This document shows positions 590 to 25,657 of a stretch of 35,863 nt of DNA, in pieces. The notes below the pieces were generated by a model, which was given only the letters and a program-made list of their open reading frames with translations, was not told the DNA's origin and searched no databases. Within the stretch, counting starts at the first letter, position 1, and each line of letters opens with the position of its first letter. This DNA is from Rickettsiales bacterium (GTDB taxonomy: Bacteria > Pseudomonadota > Alphaproteobacteria > Rickettsiales > Deianiraeaceae). A program made the translations under genes and the position numbers. The DNA is taken from assembly GCA_016735445.1 (NCBI GenBank), contig JAERRN010000010.1, positions 1-35,863 on the forward strand, read 5' to 3'.

Positions 590-634
590 GCAAACCAGCA
601 TCACATCATCCAGACATAATACTTTTATTTAGTT

Positions 635-3386
<2,752 letters not shown>

Positions 3387-6950: not shown

Positions 6951-7241
6951 ATGGGTAAACTAAAAACCGATCCATTATTTTTAGGTTTAACAAGGCCAGC
7001 AATGGTGTTTGGGGTATCTTTTTTATTCTTTGGCTTAAACATGATGATATCCGTCTCATACTTTGTTGTGACATCTGATTTTAGAATTGTACTTTTCGCA
7101 GTCTTTTTTCACGGTGCCGGCATGCTTTTAACAAAAAAAGAACCTCTAGCTATAGAGATTTTAATGGTAAAACTGCAAAAGTGCAACGGTGGGCAAAATA
7201 AAACTTTTTACAAAGGGCTGCATTCGTATGGTGTTTTTTAA
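6951..7241 (+). CDS. virB3: Type IV secretion system protein VirB3
   Basis: Small inner-membrane component of the VirB/VirD4 type IV secretion channel. The 96-residue length is normal for Rickettsiales VirB3. The layout matches the family: a short N-terminus with DPLFLGLTRPAMVFGVS leading into two hydrophobic segments (about residues 15-40 and 42-62), then a cytoplasmic tail containing KKEPLAIEILMVKL. In most VirB operons virB3 is followed directly by the ATPase gene virB4; here the next gene is parA, about 365 bases away, so virB3 is an orphan. No Shine-Dalgarno site; a promoter-like element lies immediately upstream. Confidence 0.9.
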   Translation: MGKLKTDPLFLGLTRPAMVFGVSFLFFGLNMMISVSYFVVTSDFRIVLFAVFFHGAGMLLTKKEPLAIEILMVKLQKCNGGQNKTFYKGLHSYGVF

Positions 7242-8485: not shown

Positions 8486-9640
8486 ATGAAAAAAGAACAA
8501 GATCAAAACTCGGTATCAAACGAAGACCAGTGCAAAGTAAAAAAAGAAAAAAGATTGGGGTTGGGACGTGGTTTGGATGCATTATTTAGCTCTAATATAA
8601 AGTCGCATACAGCAATTAACACACAGAACGATACACAAAATATAGGTAAAGGGGAGCAGATAGTTATGACGGTAAACGTCTCCACTGTGTTCGGAAACAA
8701 AGATCAGCCAAGAAAACATTTTGACGAAGTGAAGTTAAAGGAGTTATCCGATTCTATTGTTGAAAATGGGTTATTGCAACCAATATTATTACAAAAATTT
8801 GATAACGAGAAGTACAGAATTATCGCAGGTGAACGAAGATTTAGAGCGGTAAAAATAGCAGGTTTAAAAAATATCCAAGCAATCGTTATTTCAGTCCCAA
8901 ACGAAAGAAAAATTCTAGAGCTTGCCTTGTTAGAAAATATACAAAGAACAGATTTATCAATCGTAGAAGAAGCACGCGCCTATGCATCGTTAATAGAAGA
9001 TTTCCGTTGTACACATGAAATGATTTCTAAAAAACTTAGTAAAAGTCGATCTCATATCACAAACTCGATAAGAATATTAAAAATGCCAGATTTTGTGTTA
9101 AATTTAATAGAATCTAACCAAATCTCTTTTGGACATGCTAAGGTAATAGCGGGGCTGGAAGATCAGTCTTTTTGGGCACAAATGGTAATTGAAAAAAACC
9201 TAACCATTAGAATGCTTGAAAAGGAAATTTTAAAAGAAAAGGAAATATTACAATGTGGAATAATAACCAAGCGACAAAGTGACGAATGTAACACAATGTT
9301 GGAAAACCAAAATAATCCAAACAAAGAACAAACACATACCAGAGAGCAGCAAAATTGCAAACCAGTAAAATTAGCGCAAATAATAACTGATAAACAAAAT
9401 AATAGTAAGTCAAAAAACGGAAGTAATGTAAAAAATGAAACACTAAAAAAAGCCCTACATAAGCTTAAAAGTACACTTGCAACGTTAAACGCAACAATAG
9501 AAGTTGTAGAGGAAGAAAATGAAACAGTGTATATTTTAATGCATTGTAATAATAAAAATATAGCAACGCAAATGATGGAAAAATTAAGCGAATTAAGTGA
9601 GGTAAACATTGCCGACAACAAACACTCTGATGAGTTATAG
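8486..9640 (+). CDS. parB: Chromosome partitioning protein ParB (Spo0J)
   Basis: CTP-dependent DNA clamp that loads at parS sites. The 384 residues show the usual order: basic N-terminal tail with LGLGRGLDALFS (24-35), where ParA is contacted; a ParB/Srx nucleotide-binding domain with DQPRKHFD (73-80) and the CTP motif GERRFRA (115-121); ENIQR (150-154); a helix-turn-helix region (about 165-200); a long polar linker (about 245-315) rich in Asn, Gln and Lys; and a C-terminal dimerisation domain. The linker makes it longer than the common 280-300 residues. A decayed copy of its last 300 bases lies downstream of glyQ. No Shine-Dalgarno site is seen. Confidence 0.95.
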   Translation: MKKEQDQNSVSNEDQCKVKKEKRLGLGRGLDALFSSNIKSHTAINTQNDTQNIGKGEQIVMTVNVSTVFGNKDQPRKHFDEVKLKELSDSIVENGLLQPILLQKFDNEKYRIIAGERRFRAVKIAGLKNIQAIVISVPNERKILELALLENIQRTDLSIVEEARAYASLIEDFRCTHEMISKKLSKSRSHITNSIRILKMPDFVLNLIESNQISFGHAKVIAGLEDQSFWAQMVIEKNLTIRMLEKEILKEKEILQCGIITKRQSDECNTMLENQNNPNKEQTHTREQQNCKPVKLAQIITDKQNNSKSKNGSNVKNETLKKALHKLKSTLATLNATIEVVEEENETVYILMHCNNKNIATQMMEKLSELSEVNIADNKHSDEL

Positions 9641-10739: not shown

Positions 10740-11245
10740 AGCTAATAACATAAACGGGGAGTGCAATATAAATTTTTGATAAGATCTAAACAAATCTACC
10801 ACATTGTAACCGCTACGGAGTATGTGTGGCAACAAACAAATAACGACAAAGCTTAAATCGTTATCGTAAGTAATTACATATCTTACATTCGTAACCCAAA
10901 CAAAAAGCTAACTCACTAGAGAGCGGTAACAATACAAACTGGTAATATTAGCGCAAATAATAACTGATAAACAAAATAATAGTAAGTCAGAAAATGGAAA
11001 TAATGTAAAAAATGAAACACTAAAAGCCCTACATAAGTTTAGAGATGTAGTTTTTAAAGGTACAGCTTGGCACACTTACAACGTTAAACGTAACAATAAA
11101 AGATGTAAGAGGAAAAAATAGAAACAGTGTATATTTTAATGCATTGTAACAATGAAAATATAGCAACGCAAATAATTGAAAAATTAAGCGAATTAAACGA
11201 GGTAAACATTGTTTAATGTTGTTAATCAATAACAATTATGAGTAA
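10740..11245 (+). pseudogene. Decayed duplicate of the parB 3' end and glyQ start
   Basis: From about 10905 to 11216 the sequence aligns with the last 300 bases of parB (about 9340-9610). Shared stretches include ttagcgcaaataataactga, gaaacagtgtatattttaat and tagcaacgcaaat. Small insertions and deletions and an in-frame TAG near 11119 prevent translation. Weaker similarity may extend back to about 10740. After it, aacaattatgagtaata (about 11229-11245) resembles the glyQ start taattatgagtaata (9787-9800). The copy therefore carries the parB-glyQ junction with most of the spacer deleted. No functional ORF remains. The homology is seen directly; a tandem duplication of parB-3'-glyQ followed by loss is inferred. 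Confidence 0.85.
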
Positions 11246-11278: not shown

Positions 11279-13567
11279 CTACGAAAAATCATCATCATTT
11301 ATCATGTTATAATCGATCGACCCCATTGCCTTACCAGCTGCCACATTATTTTGTAAAAAAGCAACCGCCTCCATAAAAGAAAACTCCACCTGTTTTTCGG
11401 ATAATCGCTTTTTTTTCTTCTTTAAAATATGCTTACTTATTAAACGAGAGTATGGTTTTCCACAACTCCATCCAATATCACTTTCATCTATCGATACAGT
11501 TGTGTATAGACATTTATCACAAATACCTAATGTAAACTTGTTATCGTTAGAATTGGTTAATAAACCATATAACTTTCTTCGCTCCGCAAAAGAATTAAGA
11601 CTTCCATCCGGTAACCAAGTTTCATTGCGAACAATAACTACATTAGAAATAACCCCGTTATTGCTAGATTCGTAACCAGTAGTGTAAACAAAAAAACGCT
11701 TATATGGAGCTAAAACAAACATTTTACTTTCGTTAAAATACCCAAATAGATCTCTATTTTTAATAACAATACCCCTATTGCTAAAATAAGAAGGATCTGA
11801 CGTTACATTTATGCCCTGAAACTTGCTAATATAACCAATATTAAGTAAAGAAAGCAACGTCGGCGCAAAGTCTAAGTGACTAACTAAAGCCCCTATTGTG
11901 CGAGGCTCTTCTTTTGAATTTACAATAATCCATGGTATTTTATTTAAATCTGGCGAAATAAAAAGTGAAGTTGCATTTACCTTTCCAGAAGAACCAATAA
12001 ACACAACAATAGTGTCACGAAGACAATCCTCCTTTTTTATAACATTTAAAAGATGCATAATATTTCCATCTACAGTATTTGGAGAAACGCTACCACTGGA
12101 AGTGGAAAATAAATTAGAAGAAATATAGTAAACAAAATTATTGCCATTTTTAAAATCATGCAGTGCTTTTTTTGTAATTACCCTTGCTAAAAGCTCTATT
12201 GATTCATCGCCAACATTCCCGTTAAAATTAACCGACCTACCGCTTTTACCGTTATTCAATTGCGGTAATTCGTCAACATTGCGGTATAGAGACTCAAGGT
12301 AATTTAGCTCAAAACCAGATCTATAAAATATATCAATATCTTCAATTTTTTCTAAAGACTTATTTGTAAACGCTTTAACAGAGTAACCCTGACCTTTTAA
12401 AATATTTGGGAACGAAAACAAACTTCCGCTACCAGATAACGACTTGTCAGCGTTTATCGGTACAACAGAAAATAACATACTAAACAAAGATTCGCTTTTA
12501 CGGTTAGACATAGCAAATGCACGACTAAAAACCAAACTACTGTCCACTAAAGAAGATAAATATGCCATTGATTTAAACCGGACACCGTTAAAATGATTAA
12601 TACAATTTAAATTGTCTAACTGCACAATAATCATATTTGGACGTCTATCGCTGTCTTTAAGTTTAAACACTTTTGCACCTAAATCTGATTTAAAATCAGA
12701 ATCACCACCAACAAAAAAAACATTTTTTTCGTTATTTACGTTCTCAACCAAAGCGCGTCTTATTCTATCTTGTGATGTAGGAAAAGAAACGTATCTATCT
12801 TCAAACTTCCATATAACTGCAAATTTTCTGGCAAATAATTCGTATAATCCGTTTTTAGATAAATTTATGACATATTTATTGTTAACGCTGTTAATATTAT
12901 AGCCACCAAAAACGCTAGTAATGTCAAATCTGCTATTATAAATGTCTAAACTAAACAAAAAAGCTAAGCTAATAAGTAAATATTTTACAGAGGTAACGTC
13001 CAGATAAGGCGTATAATCGCTATTTGTAAAAGACATATTATACCTTTTTACAACTCTGCTAAATGCAATTGATGGTGCGCAAATTAATATTATAAAAAGT
13101 AAAACCACTATATACCAACCATAGCTTCGGTTAAACTTAAAAACATAAGACACCACCTCGCTAATATAAATAGTAAAATCGTAATAAAGCCTATCTCCGC
13201 TTTTTAGCCAAACAAATAACTCTAGCCAAAAAACTAAAACAACAAATGCAGACACTGTTGTAACAAAAAATAATAACCCAATTTTACCAATAATTGACTT
13301 TCTTAACTCGATAGGTATTATCGCAATAAGCGCAAACAAAAATAAGGCTATATGTGCGGCCACTATTATATCGTACATCGAACCAATAGCCAAAGACAAA
13401 GGTACAAGAAGTATTTTATAAGAAAAAAAGCGCTTTGCAGCAAAGCAAAAAAGTAAAATCCTTAAAACTAACTGTATAGCTACATATGGCCAAATAACGC
13501 CAGCTACACCCTTAAGAGAAACTAAAATTGTACGAACCCTAGATTCGGTACCTACCTGATAAGACAT
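11279..13567 (-). CDS. Membrane-anchored alkaline-phosphatase-fold protein, probably inactive
   Basis: 762 residues: four or five transmembrane segments in the first 215 residues, then a large domain resembling the sulfatase / LTA-synthase / phosphoethanolamine-transferase branch of the alkaline phosphatase superfamily. Support: NMIIVQLDNLN (311-321) at the usual first strand, the segment at 354-360 where the Thr nucleophile sits, DTIVVFIGSSG (518-528), and SHLDFAPTLLSLLN (563-576), the conserved HxDxxPT motif. The other metal and catalytic residues look lost: the usual GDHG is GSSG, the early acidic ligand and nucleophile are changed, and the usual His after the central strand is missing. 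It may keep a structural or binding role. A charged tail rich in Lys (716-722) follows. It lies 186 nt downstream of dedA. Confidence 0.7.
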   Translation of the reverse strand: MSYQVGTESRVRTILVSLKGVAGVIWPYVAIQLVLRILLFCFAAKRFFSYKILLVPLSLAIGSMYDIIVAAHIALFLFALIAIIPIELRKSIIGKIGLLFFVTTVSAFVVLVFWLELFVWLKSGDRLYYDFTIYISEVVSYVFKFNRSYGWYIVVLLFIILICAPSIAFSRVVKRYNMSFTNSDYTPYLDVTSVKYLLISLAFLFSLDIYNSRFDITSVFGGYNINSVNNKYVINLSKNGLYELFARKFAVIWKFEDRYVSFPTSQDRIRRALVENVNNEKNVFFVGGDSDFKSDLGAKVFKLKDSDRRPNMIIVQLDNLNCINHFNGVRFKSMAYLSSLVDSSLVFSRAFAMSNRKSESLFSMLFSVVPINADKSLSGSGSLFSFPNILKGQGYSVKAFTNKSLEKIEDIDIFYRSGFELNYLESLYRNVDELPQLNNGKSGRSVNFNGNVGDESIELLARVITKKALHDFKNGNNFVYYISSNLFSTSSGSVSPNTVDGNIMHLLNVIKKEDCLRDTIVVFIGSSGKVNATSLFISPDLNKIPWIIVNSKEEPRTIGALVSHLDFAPTLLSLLNIGYISKFQGINVTSDPSYFSNRGIVIKNRDLFGYFNESKMFVLAPYKRFFVYTTGYESSNNGVISNVVIVRNETWLPDGSLNSFAERRKLYGLLTNSNDNKFTLGICDKCLYTTVSIDESDIGWSCGKPYSRLISKHILKKKKKRLSEKQVEFSFMEAVAFLQNNVAAGKAMGSIDYNMINDDDFS

Positions 13568-13753: not shown

Positions 13754-14380
13754 TTATTTATCGTTAATTGTATTTTTAACTAATCTATTGCGAAAATAAT
13801 AAGTAATAGCAACAAACGCAACAAGCAATAAACCAGCAATTTCTAAATAATAGAGAATAACCCGCTTGTCATGCGTTTCTCCAATTCTTATTCCAACACT
13901 AATTATTGCTGTATTAAATATTAATGCACCTAAAAATGTATAAAATATAAATTTAAAAATATTCATTTTAGATAACCCTGGTGGCAACGAGGCAACATGT
14001 TTAACAAATGGCAAAAAACGACCAATAAAAGTAAACAATGAAGAGTGTCTATTGAAAGCTTTTTCAAAATTATGAAATTTTTTATAATTAATAAAAAAAT
14101 ACTTCCCATATTTTTTTATCATATCGCGACCAAAATAAAAGGCGATAGCGTAGTTTAGCAAGGCACCTACAATAGAGCCTAGAGTACAAATACCTAATGT
14201 AATATAATAATTTAATTGATCGCAACCAATTAAGTAACCTGCAGAAAATAACACTATTTCAGCAGGAAAAAAAACAGGAATAGAAGTGCTTTCTATTGCC
14301 ATTATAACAAAAAAACCCCAATAACCAGTATCGCTAGCAAAGGCAAGCAAAGAATTAGAAATATTTTCAATCCAAGACAT
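13754..14380 (-). CDS. DedA family membrane protein
   Basis: Inner-membrane protein of the DedA/VTT family, whose members are linked to undecaprenyl-phosphate or phospholipid translocation and envelope homeostasis. The 208-residue length is typical. Landmarks: ESTSIPVFFPAEIVLFSAGYL near residue 30, a Gly-rich helix GSIVGALLNYAIAFYFGR near 90, and the family signature FIGRFLPFVKHVASLPPGLSKM near 117-138, with several hydrophobic helices. It begins 12 nt after the mlaD stop, so the two are almost certainly co-transcribed. Whether it carries a specific lipid cannot be read from the sequence. Confidence 0.9.
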   Translation of the reverse strand: MSWIENISNSLLAFASDTGYWGFFVIMAIESTSIPVFFPAEIVLFSAGYLIGCDQLNYYITLGICTLGSIVGALLNYAIAFYFGRDMIKKYGKYFFINYKKFHNFEKAFNRHSSLFTFIGRFLPFVKHVASLPPGLSKMNIFKFIFYTFLGALIFNTAIISVGIRIGETHDKRVILYYLEIAGLLLVAFVAITYYFRNRLVKNTINDK

Positions 14381-14392
14381 AAAGTGAAATAC

Positions 14393-14842
14393 TTATTTTT
14401 TAGTCTTTCCAGACACAAAACTCCCAACTAGGCCTTCAAAGTTAAGAGCTGACTTAGTAGATTGGAAAAAATCATTATTCTGTAACATCTCATCGTCACC
14501 GCCAATCTCAACACTTAAGTATTTAGCTCCTAATAATCCAGAAGAGATAACAGAAATAGATGAATCCTCCGGTAAATTAACACCATTGCTAACAATAATA
14601 TAAACAATCACCTGCAAATTATCATCCAATTTTAAATCCTTAACCATACCAACTTTAACACCTCCAATCTTTACAGGTGTACCAATATTAACACCCTCAA
14701 TATCAGAAAAACGAGCCCTTAAAACTGTATACGGTTTTGTAATAGAGCCACCAGAACTAAACTTGTAAACCCGAAAACAAAAAAGACAAGATGCAAGTAC
14801 TACTAAAAAACCAATCATCGACTCAAAATACCTACTACTCAT
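14393..14842 (-). CDS. mlaD: MCE-domain lipid transport protein MlaD
   Basis: Periplasmic substrate-binding subunit of the Mla phospholipid transporter, anchored in the inner membrane. The 149 residues comprise an N-terminal transmembrane helix (about 7-26) and one MCE domain with the family pattern VLRARFSDIEGVNIGTPVKIGGVKVG followed by SSGLLGAKYLSVEIGG. It is somewhat shorter than E. coli MlaD, with a reduced C-terminal tail. In the usual operon the ATPase mlaF and permease mlaE are adjacent; here mlaF is about 12 kb away at 26944 and mlaE is not in the window. Neighbours are the IalB-like gene upstream (17 nt) and dedA downstream (12 nt). Confidence 0.92.
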   Translation of the reverse strand: MSSRYFESMIGFLVVLASCLFCFRVYKFSSGGSITKPYTVLRARFSDIEGVNIGTPVKIGGVKVGMVKDLKLDDNLQVIVYIIVSNGVNLPEDSSISVISSGLLGAKYLSVEIGGDDEMLQNNDFFQSTKSALNFEGLVGSFVSGKTKK

Positions 14843-19680: not shown

Positions 19681-21459
19681 TTACTCGAAAAACTTAATAG
19701 GATCCACAGTTTTTTTACCATTTCTACTATTTAAAGATTCAACTATTGCAACTTTTTTACCATCCTTGCGTAGCTTTTGTAAAAACACATCAAAATCCTC
19801 TACATTAACCATATTAACGCCATTGCACTTTAATATAACGTCACCAACGTGCAATTCATCATTGTCTTGAATAAACTTACTTACAATATTGTTTACCAAT
19901 ACACCATGCGTGTCATCTCTTAAGCCAATCCTTTCAGCAACAGATGGGGTTATTGACAAAACCGACACAACGGAGAATTTTGATTTGGAAGTGGTTTTAA
20001 TTTTATGATCAAGATCGCGACTCTGTTTTTCTTTCAAAGGCGGTAATATAATGCTTAGTAATTTACCGTATCTCCAAATAGAAATCTCAACTTTAGTACC
20101 AATAGGTGTGTCTAAAAATAATTTGTTAAATTTAGTATCCTTTTTAATTTTATCTCCTTTGTAAGACAAAATTACATCACCAATTTTCAATCCTCCGTTG
20201 TCAGCGGGAGAGCCACGAACAATATCGGTAATAAAAATACCATCGATACGTTTTAAACTAACCGCATCAGCAATTTTTTTATCAACAACAGTAAACGAAA
20301 TACCAAGCCAAGGTCTTTTAATTTTTTCACCTTTTAACAATCTATCAACAATAGATTTAAACAAATTAGAAGACACAGCAAAATTTAACCCTATATTACC
20401 ATCAGCCGCAAAACCCCTGTTACCAGCAGCTATAACCCCAACAACGTTACCATTATAGTTAAGTAAAGGACCGCCAGAATTACCAGCATTAACTGGCGCG
20501 TCGGTTTGTATAAAATCTTCATATACAACTTTTCCGATTTCTCTAGATTTTGCAGACACAATACCACGTGTGACAGTTCCGCCTAAACCAAAAGGATTAC
20601 CAACAGTAATAACGTCCTCACCAACCAATACTTTGTCCGAATCAGTGAATGCTAAAAATGGAAAAACCTCTTTGGAAGAAATTTTTAAAAGCGCAACATC
20701 TGTTCTTTCATCGTAGCCAAAAATCTTAGCACTAAATTCCTTTCCATCGTAAGTAGTTACAGTAATGTTATTAGCGTTCTTAACAACATGATAACTAGTA
20801 GCTATAATACCGTTTTTATCAATAAAAAAACCAGAGCCGATAGTTTTAACCCGCTTCCTGATAATCTTACCAAAGTCACCAAATACACGAAACCGTAAAA
20901 GAGGAAAATCTGCAGGTAAAATATTGGAAATAAACATTGGTCTCGTTGCTGATACCGAAAGATTTACAACAGTAGGAATAATTTTACTAACAAGTGAAGG
21001 AATGTTGTGCTTCTCGCAAACACACTGACCGTCAACTGCAACTGCAACATCCGCCACAGCGTCGGATGCAACATTAGCCGCAAGGTCGGTATTAGTCGCA
21101 ACATTAGCTATAGATACAGCATTAGTTACAACTACAGCATCAGATGTAACATTAGCCGCAAGGTCGGCTACGGTTGCAATATCGGTTGTAATATCGGTTA
21201 CAGCTACAGCGTCGGATGTAATGTTAGCCGCAAGGTCAATATCGGTTGTAATATCGGTTGTAATATCGGTTGTAATATCGGTTGTAATATCGGTTACAGC
21301 TACAGCGTCGGATGTAATATTAGCCGTAACACCAACGCCAACATTGTTAGCAAACGAAGAATGGTAAGGTTGTAAAAAAAACAATATCGCTAAACAATAA
21401 TTAACAACGGCAGATGAGCTATTAAAACAACCTTTAAACTTACGCAAAAACAACAACAT
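19681..21459 (-). CDS. degP: HtrA/DegP-family serine protease with N-terminal repeat tract
   Basis: Periplasmic quality-control protease. 592 residues: signal peptide (about 15-37), a repeat tract (about 45-143), a trypsin-like domain with the triad His224 (SYHVV), Asp254 (RTDVALLK) and Ser328 (GNSGGPLL), then two PDZ domains (about 383-475 and 495-580). The repeat tract is unusual: it has copies of DLAANxxSDAVxVT-like units mixed with TDIT tetrads and is unlike any part of ordinary DegP. At DNA level it includes five near-perfect 12-bp copies. A TATAAT box lies only 8 nt before the ATG. Active-site residues are intact, so protease function is expected; the repeat tract is of unknown role. 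Confidence 0.93.
   Translation of the reverse strand: MLLFLRKFKGCFNSSSAVVNYCLAILFFLQPYHSSFANNVGVGVTANITSDAVAVTDITTDITTDITTDITTDIDLAANITSDAVAVTDITTDIATVADLAANVTSDAVVVTNAVSIANVATNTDLAANVASDAVADVAVAVDGQCVCEKHNIPSLVSKIIPTVVNLSVSATRPMFISNILPADFPLLRFRVFGDFGKIIRKRVKTIGSGFFIDKNGIIATSYHVVKNANNITVTTYDGKEFSAKIFGYDERTDVALLKISSKEVFPFLAFTDSDKVLVGEDVITVGNPFGLGGTVTRGIVSAKSREIGKVVYEDFIQTDAPVNAGNSGGPLLNYNGNVVGVIAAGNRGFAADGNIGLNFAVSSNLFKSIVDRLLKGEKIKRPWLGISFTVVDKKIADAVSLKRIDGIFITDIVRGSPADNGGLKIGDVILSYKGDKIKKDTKFNKLFLDTPIGTKVEISIWRYGKLLSIILPPLKEKQSRDLDHKIKTTSKSKFSVVSVLSITPSVAERIGLRDDTHGVLVNNIVSKFIQDNDELHVGDVILKCNGVNMVNVEDFDVFLQKLRKDGKKVAIVESLNSRNGKKTVDPIKFFE
21079..21335. repeat. Nested tandem repeats inside the htrA N-terminus
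   Basis: The 12-bp unit atatcggttgta occurs five times in a row at 21239-21298 (the last copy ends taca) and again at 21176-21199. A larger unit containing ttagccgcaaggtc recurs near 21078, 21152 and 21223, about 70-75 bp apart. All unit lengths are multiples of three, so reading frame is kept. Slippage within the array would change the length of the linker without breaking the protease. Confidence 0.85.
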
Positions 21460-24023: not shown

Positions 24024-24926
24024 TTATTTTTTAAAATCAATCAACCCGTCAAAAGACTCAAGTAGTGATTCGTTAAATATACATACAAGCTCCCTATCCC
24101 ACCTTAAAGAAAACTGATACTCAATTCCCTCAACAACAACGTACTCATTTTCCAAAGAAACCTTTAACCTTCTCTCTTTTCCATCGTGAGACACAGAATA
24201 AACACCAGGAACAATGCTGTTTTGATTGGAAAACTGAAAATATGTTTTCTTTCCATCGTCAAACACTTTAATTGGTAAAATTATATCACTACTACCAGCA
24301 AAAGTGTATAAATAATTAATTGGCAATCCTTTTGTATCTTCCATTTGGTCAGGCACTGGAGAAAGCGGTAAATTAATACTTGGATTACGAACATGAAATG
24401 GTCTAGTCGAATCTGGGTTAAGCTCTGGGTAAAAAAAGCGCACCACATACACTAATTGGTCGTCCACTTCGTCATCCATGTATCCACCAGAATGTATTTC
24501 ACTTAAGTAAATTCTTTTTGTCGTAACAATTGTCATATTAGTCATTGCTCCAGGGTCTAATGCTTTTATAAAAAGCAAACGACCAAAAACTTTAACGCTC
24601 CAAGGAATTGGATCACCAAACGCAATCAATTCAACATCTTCATCATCTTCCATTTCTATAATAGATTGATAACCAACGGCAAACTTTAAGCGAAATATCT
24701 CGTTCGAGTTATAAACTAGTGTTTTAATTCTACTGTCTATTGCGATAGGGTGACTATTGTTACCAATGGTAAACCCAAAGCACAAAGAAGACGACGGTGA
24801 AACATACACGAAGCAAAAAAGAAGAAAGCGCGTGAGGTGATTAAAAAACCTGAAACGCCAAAACAAATTATGCATACAAGACATAATCGTCACAAAAATA
24901 TATTGTATTGTCCAGTAAACAAACAT
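24024..24926 (-). CDS. virB9: Type IV secretion system protein VirB9
   Basis: Outer-membrane-core component of the VirB channel, acting with VirB7 and VirB10 in the periplasm. About 300 residues: signal-peptide-like FNHLTRFLLFCFVYVSPSSS near the N-terminus, then an N-terminal domain with FRLKFAVGYQSIIEM, the middle segment YVVRFFYPELNP, and the C-terminal VirB9 domain with IKVFDDGKKTYFQF, RLKVSLENEYVVVEGIEYQFSLR. The track start is TTG at 24932; the ATG at 24926 or a later ATG is more likely. It follows virB8 by 14 nt. virB10 and virB11, which normally come next, are absent; dnaG follows instead. Confidence 0.93.
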   Translation of the reverse strand: MFVYWTIQYIFVTIMSCMHNLFWRFRFFNHLTRFLLFCFVYVSPSSSLCFGFTIGNNSHPIAIDSRIKTLVYNSNEIFRLKFAVGYQSIIEMEDDEDVELIAFGDPIPWSVKVFGRLLFIKALDPGAMTNMTIVTTKRIYLSEIHSGGYMDDEVDDQLVYVVRFFYPELNPDSTRPFHVRNPSINLPLSPVPDQMEDTKGLPINYLYTFAGSSDIILPIKVFDDGKKTYFQFSNQNSIVPGVYSVSHDGKERRLKVSLENEYVVVEGIEYQFSLRWDRELVCIFNESLLESFDGLIDFKK

Positions 24927-24940
24927 AACCAAAATCGCTA

Positions 24941-25657
24941 CTAATCTTCAACATATTCTATTTGCAACATATAAGAAACAACCTGAAAGCCAAATGGATT
25001 TAACCGTCTATCCTCCAGATTTAATTCCAAATCGGAAAATTGAAAACTAACAATCGCCATATACTTATACTCTTTAGTTTGTGGTTTGTTTTCTGCGCTT
25101 ACAATTTTAGCAAACCTTAACGCAACCCTAGTTGGTGTTATATAATTTAAAGACCTTATTTTTATTTGTGCAGAAGGTCTTTGACCATACCGTCTAACAA
25201 GTTTTATAGATTCATCATAATTCTTTACATGTTCCTCATACGATGCCTTAGTGGAAAACACCCTAACGTAATCCATATTTCTCTCAACCGCATTAACATC
25301 GTACGCTTCTTTAGCCGATACATACGAAACCAACAAAGACTCTTTTAACGCTTCTTGCGCTGTGTATTCTTTTTTAGTTTTATAATCTACAATAGTTGCG
25401 ATACCAGTATCTGGTTCAACCTCTATTAAATAAGGGTCAATTGCTCTTTGGTCATACATAACTTTAATTAATATAAGTCCTATTAGTACCCCAATAGAAG
25501 CTAAGGCGCTAAATAAAAATAACACATTCCGTTGCACCGCTATCGCTAAGTACCTGTCAACGTACCAATTAGTTATTTTTCGCTTTCTAACGTTTGTTTT
25601 AGGTTTGTTAACGCTAGGCTTCTTTTTGGCGAGTTTACCTATCTTTAATAAGGCCAT
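24941..25657 (-). CDS. virB8: Type IV secretion system protein VirB8
   Basis: Inner-membrane assembly factor of the VirB channel. The 238 residues have the normal layout: a basic cytoplasmic tail of about 38 residues (KKKPSVNKPKTNVRKRK), one transmembrane helix (about 45-66), and a periplasmic VirB8 domain with ESLLVSYVSAKEAYDV, NMDYVRVFSTKASYEEH and the C-terminal strand NPFGFQVVSYMLQIEYVED. virB8 and virB9 are adjacent and co-directional, a pair kept in most Rickettsiales. The rest of the operon is not adjacent. No Shine-Dalgarno site precedes the ATG. Confidence 0.93.
   Translation of the reverse strand: MALLKIGKLAKKKPSVNKPKTNVRKRKITNWYVDRYLAIAVQRNVLFLFSALASIGVLIGLILIKVMYDQRAIDPYLIEVEPDTGIATIVDYKTKKEYTAQEALKESLLVSYVSAKEAYDVNAVERNMDYVRVFSTKASYEEHVKNYDESIKLVRRYGQRPSAQIKIRSLNYITPTRVALRFAKIVSAENKPQTKEYKYMAIVSFQFSDLELNLEDRRLNPFGFQVVSYMLQIEYVED

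Follow-up and report, generated by a model that had tools for sequence, protein, structure and literature searches.

Pseudo-hydrolases are already known in the superfamily of LTA synthases and phosphoethanolamine transferases, and for inner-membrane ones such as PbgA/YejM it is disputed whether they are enzymes or binding proteins (PMC7576196 versus PMC7018646). On one side, PbgA/YejM has been described with five transmembrane (TM) helices, a degenerate hydrolase domain and lipid binding, and PbgA was reported to have a degenerate site without the usual catalytic residues of this superfamily (PMC7018646). On the other side, YejM was found to keep Thr302 and to show Mg-dependent phosphatase activity, and was claimed to be a metalloenzyme in a study whose description of the site also includes an Asp (PMC7576196). 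The literature that we searched did not report an LtaS/OpgB-like family that is confined to one lineage, has wholly lost its site and is retained in Rickettsiales; the protein described here is a candidate member of one.

The window, by which we mean the whole 35,863-nucleotide stretch of DNA that was analysed, carries a 762-codon open reading frame (ORF) that a sequence-only reading had assigned to the LTA-synthase / phosphoethanolamine-transferase group. The full length of the ORF is confirmed; it lies on the minus strand, and the plus strand across the same coordinates is filled with stops. The 762-residue protein matches the Pfam Sulfatase family (PF00884) above the cut-off, at 1.4e-10, and a sequence search also matches PDB entry 3LXQ. 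The AlphaFold model (pTM 0.74, mean pLDDT 72, 62 alignment rows) begins with five long helices, after which comes an alpha/beta domain, and when it was compared with the PDB by Foldseek, 3LXQ ranked top (E 9e-17, target TM-score 0.75), followed by full-length PbgA/YejM and then by Listeria LtaP, with probability 1.00. Structure prediction, which had been suggested as a check, therefore returned a match to the superfamily, and both the earlier placement and the earlier mention of a membrane anchor were right. The protein is organized as follows.

11279..13567, minus strand: predicted pseudo-(LtaS/OpgB-type) membrane protein, 762 aa (ORF, PF00884, model and PDB matches)
12938..13567, minus strand: N-terminal membrane domain, residues 1-210, with five TM helices at 6-44, 54-83, 92-123, 150-179 and 188-210 (DSSP on the AlphaFold model), aligning with the TM domain of relatives
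11666..12670, minus strand: periplasmic domain with the alkaline-phosphatase fold, approximately residues 300-634 (AlphaFold model, with Foldseek matches to 3LXQ, YejM and LtaP)
11282..11665, minus strand: C-terminal tail (residues 635-762), for the most part an insertion that relatives lack, with 669-762 mostly of low confidence at pLDDT < 50 (alignment and model)

To define the canonical site, we assembled 119 distinct relatives from the order, taken to be Rickettsiales, and from named genomes (Holosporales, Midichloria, Rickettsia, Aquarickettsia, Bacteroidota, Gammaproteobacteria and others). Two conserved patterns, distinct from the catalytic residues, guided the search of the named genomes, which favours canonical members. 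Within the order, matches were found in 87 of 344 genomes, all 87 outside the bacterial family of the window, and protein-only searches gave matches in 46 other genomes of the order (best 1.2e-20). All six catalytic positions, namely the E of ESxS, the T of GTRT, the N and H of SNHRP and the D and H of ADH, are intact in 118 of the 119 relatives; the remaining one is a truncated ORF. In alignments, the corresponding positions of the window protein read as follows.

12614..12616, minus strand: D318, replacing the invariant Glu metal ligand (ESxS motif)
12497..12499, minus strand: K357, replacing the invariant nucleophile Thr (GTRT motif)
12107..12118, minus strand: residues 484-487, the point at which the invariant SNHRP loop is deleted
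11987..11992, minus strand: S526-S527, replacing the invariant Asp-His metal ligands (ADH motif)
11858..11881, minus strand: SHLDFAPT, residues 563-570, a retained motif

The retained motif, which the sequence-only reading had recognized, corresponds to SQIDxxPT in the relatives, with Q changed to H and the Asp (D566) kept in all. That reading had also seen GDHG replaced by GSSG, which holds at residues 525-528, where relatives carry (A/S/G)DH, and it had noted a changed early acidic ligand, a change that is real and conservative (Glu to Asp). Its description of the nucleophile region as having only Ser was mistaken: the Thr, present in 118 of the 119 relatives with one gap, aligns with K357, and both this lysine and the SNHRP deletion had been missed. 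No His/Asp/Glu set that could replace the metal site was found at the aligned positions in the sequence comparison, so that the outcome that had been named as contrary to site loss, other acidic or His residues at the metal site, did not appear. Since the Thr and all metal ligands are gone except for the exchange of Glu for Asp, the protein is expected neither to bind the catalytic metal nor to form a phospho-Thr intermediate, and judged from these alignments it is most probably a true pseudoenzyme, homologous to enzymes whose catalytic site it has lost. Its gene is the sole PF00884 sulfatase-fold gene of the window's assembly (0.96 Mb, 83% complete); an active paralogue could be absent from an assembly of that completeness yet present in the genome.

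Single-protein searches and a first scan of contigs gave no homologue within the bacterial family, and only a profile search over its 18 genomes revealed any: one in each of the two species of another genus, g7, and none in the remaining genomes.

L175:433-1869: g7 homologue in genome G006, 478 aa, intact (profile search)
L176:1543-3030, minus strand: g7 homologue in genome G010, 495 aa, intact (profile search)

Both g7 proteins keep the early Glu and have lost the Thr, the NH and the DH. The suggested check for the same substitutions in orthologues is answered by these homologues as regards the T/NH/DH loss; K357 and the Ser pair occur in neither of them. Of the columns conserved to 90% or more among 18 canonical sequences, 52 are lost in all three dead proteins, which also have N402, K407, T498 and G525 in common; these residues sit at canonical near-invariant positions and occur in none of the 18, which marks them as shared derived residues. 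In a tree the three dead proteins group with support of 97/98, on branches that are very long (the query reaches 5.5 changes per column), and long-branch attraction is possible in this three-way clade. Given the shared derived residues and the grouping, despite the long branches, a single loss in the common ancestor of the three is likely on sequence grounds, though not proven; a DedA tree did not resolve sisterhood of the window genus and g7 (support 40/20). A sulfatase gene near dedA in genome G007 was considered as an orthologue and rejected, having its own TSDHGE motif and belonging to another type. In a further genus of the bacterial family, a sulfatase-family gene is broken by a stop (G003:C1:109313-110160).

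The three-way comparison also bears on the suggestion that the protein had been selected for a new chemistry, which is unsupported because the three dead proteins share no candidate catalytic residue. The acidic or His residues of the domain common to all three are D500, D540 and D566 only, and D500 and D566 also occur in active relatives. An enzyme with a new active site, formed for example by K357 or D318 together with Ser residues and using another metal or none, would fit the retention of the full-length fold; D318 could still weakly hold a metal, and YejM shows its Mg-dependent phosphatase activity with an altered site (PMC7576196). However, K357 and the Ser pair are absent from the other two dead proteins, and beyond D540 and residues of canonical relatives no acidic/His set is common to the three; we give this explanation hardly any credence.

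Selection was measured on the g7 gene pair, over 465 aligned codons at 40% identity, with shuffled codon pairing as the control. Synonymous sites are saturated (pS 0.651 versus 0.631 shuffled), and nonsynonymous change is strongly limited (pN 0.387 versus 0.677 shuffled); saturation of dS makes the nominal dN/dS of 0.54/1.52 an upper bound. With pS at the level of random pairing and pN far lower, the dead form in g7 is under purifying selection, an observation made between the g7 homologues, the window gene having no orthologue from its own genus. Since these homologues are intact at such identity and synonymous saturation, the dead state there is both old and selected. The dN/dS check that had been suggested points to purifying selection in g7, and the proposal that the protein is selected for something other than catalysis gains two further dead homologues in its favour.

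These measurements also weigh on the view that the window gene is a decaying pseudogene in a shrinking genome, in which catalysis is unneeded and the ORF happens to be still unbroken. The genome is reduced, at about 1 Mb, the window protein has a very long branch, and its gene adjoins a degenerate copy of parB. Against this, all 762 codons are open, structural motifs such as SHLDFAPTLLSLLNIGYISKF are retained, and two homologues with the same loss have stayed intact to the point of synonymous saturation, so that decay is improbable. The codon-position GC and composition of the window gene resemble those of the neighbouring genes.

The genes immediately upstream of the pseudoenzyme gene are dedA and mlaD, both on the same strand, as the sequence-only reading had stated.

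13754..14380, minus strand: DedA/VTT-domain protein, directly upstream (PF09335, 9.5e-19)
14393..14842, minus strand: MlaD-domain protein, 12 nt upstream of dedA (PF02470, 2.2e-16)

The order on this one strand is secY, adk, an ORF of unknown function, mlaD, dedA, a 186-nt gap and the pseudoenzyme gene. We infer an envelope role from the topology of the protein and the mlaD-dedA neighbourhood, and the Mla/DedA neighbours may weakly hint at phospholipid handling. In g7, dedA and mlaD are adjacent and the dead gene lies elsewhere, so the window neighbourhood is not conserved there. Directly upstream of the dead gene, both g7 species have instead a membrane protein of 217-222 aa and unknown family (L181:8388-9041 and L182:9696-10364): in G010 the start of the dead gene overlaps the end of the 222 aa gene, and in G006 a spacing of 3 nt separates the dead gene from the homologous upstream gene, of 217 aa. 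This membrane protein is a candidate partner of the dead homologue.

Other features of the window are recorded here for completeness. The degenerate parB copy, at 10892-11211 between glyQ and the pseudoenzyme gene, corresponds to the 3′ part of parB (9313-9611) at 80.6% over 325 columns. Tandem repeats of 12, 24 and 72 nt at 21043-21295 encode a repetitive ITTD/AANVTSDAV stretch that forms the N-terminus of an HtrA-like protease (19681-21459). Genes for 5S and 23S rRNA lie on the minus strand at 408-522 and 631-3386, and since the window holds no 16S, the rRNA operon appears to be split. Two ORFs at 24024-25657 presumably encode VirB9- and VirB8-like type IV secretion proteins, and the ORF at 6951-7241 is taken to be VirB3-like.

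Gene content speaks to a further explanation, a full PbgA/YejM-like role in which the protein would be an inner-membrane pseudo-hydrolase tuning LPS synthesis through LapB and FtsH-mediated LpxC proteolysis. YejM is the second-best structural match, it shares the 5-TM anchor and a degenerate hydrolase domain, and the reported absence of superfamily-typical catalytic residues from PbgA (PMC7018646) offers a precedent. However, LpxC, LpxB, LpxD, LptD and the LapB zinc ribbon had no matches in the window's 83% complete assembly, which has three matches to penicillin-binding-type transpeptidases, whereas most members of the bacterial family carry lipid A genes and the g7 species keep them. At this completeness one LPS gene could be missed, but for scattered genes a chance absence of all five would be improbable; LPS loss in the window's genus is thus likely, and the window protein probably does not act on LPS in its own genome. 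With g7 retaining lipid A genes and the window's assembly having none of these LPS genes, the role of the dead protein is seemingly not tied to LPS. Moreover, the window protein has no Pfam match to DUF3413, the PbgA/YejM membrane domain, at E up to 1, and its sequence homology is with the OpgB/LtaS-like group, whose Rickettsiales members have full sites. Taken together, a full YejM-like role is very improbable.

We therefore favour, with a probability of roughly 0.7, a pseudoenzyme derived from a transferase of the LtaS/OpgB group and selectively kept as a ligand-binding, scaffold or sensor protein of the envelope, working without turnover. The ancestor would have been a 5-TM periplasmic phosphoglycerol-transferase-like enzyme of this group (the 3LXQ subfamily), widespread in Rickettsiales. 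Loss of the metal ligands and the nucleophile would have abolished two-step transfer and may have left binding in place, with the domain keeping a pocket or surface to which a partner protein or an anionic molecule of the envelope (phospholipid or glycerophosphate head group) would bind. By analogy with PbgA/YejM, whose precedent makes a ligand-binding or scaffold role most likely, the protein might serve the envelope machinery of the inner membrane as a scaffold, as a sensor or in lipid handling, and the dead form would have been selectively kept in at least two genera of its bacterial family. A more specific version, which we regard as tentative and rather unlikely in its entirety, is a Rickettsiales-lineage pseudoenzyme family of single origin from an LtaS/OpgB-like transferase that now, independently of LPS, senses envelope lipids or acts as a partner in their transfer, possibly together with the neighbouring MlaD and DedA, in a genome probably without LPS.

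With regard to the dispute over PbgA/YejM, the favoured pseudoenzyme would represent a separate line of descent with this fold, one that has lost the entire site yet remains under selection in the sampled relatives, and hence a cleaner natural case of the fold serving without catalysis, in bacteria whose envelopes are under reduction. The window protein shares a superfamily and fold with the EptA/MCR phosphoethanolamine transferases. It belongs to a different branch from the sulfatase-family proteins of the bacterial family's other genera, since these were not recovered by protein or profile searches. Like PbgA/YejM/LapC, it combines a 5-TM inner-membrane anchor with an alkaline-phosphatase-fold periplasmic domain and an altered site; unlike YejM, which keeps Thr302, it has lost the nucleophile, and the LPS partner genes of YejM were not found in its 83% complete assembly. 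The LtaS/LtaP and OpgB phosphoglycerol transferases resemble it in fold and topology, but it has neither their nucleophile nor their metal ligands; the best NCBIfam profiles of its canonical relatives are phosphoglycerol transferase I and LtaS, far below the cut-off. The closest system is the 3LXQ / VP1736 subfamily, LTA-synthase-like proteins of Gram-negatives that we found in Rickettsiales, Bacteroidota, Gammaproteobacteria and others, and whose structure is the best PDB match, with its TM-score of 0.75 taken by target length. E, T, NH and DH are present in every member that was checked and extends over these sites; the window protein has only the exchange of Glu for Asp, and its C-terminal tail is longer. 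As a fold family, however, this subfamily includes the window protein, which has the 5-TM anchor and the periplasmic alkaline-phosphatase-fold domain and is homologous across both over its whole length, at 18-24% identity over the full alignment.
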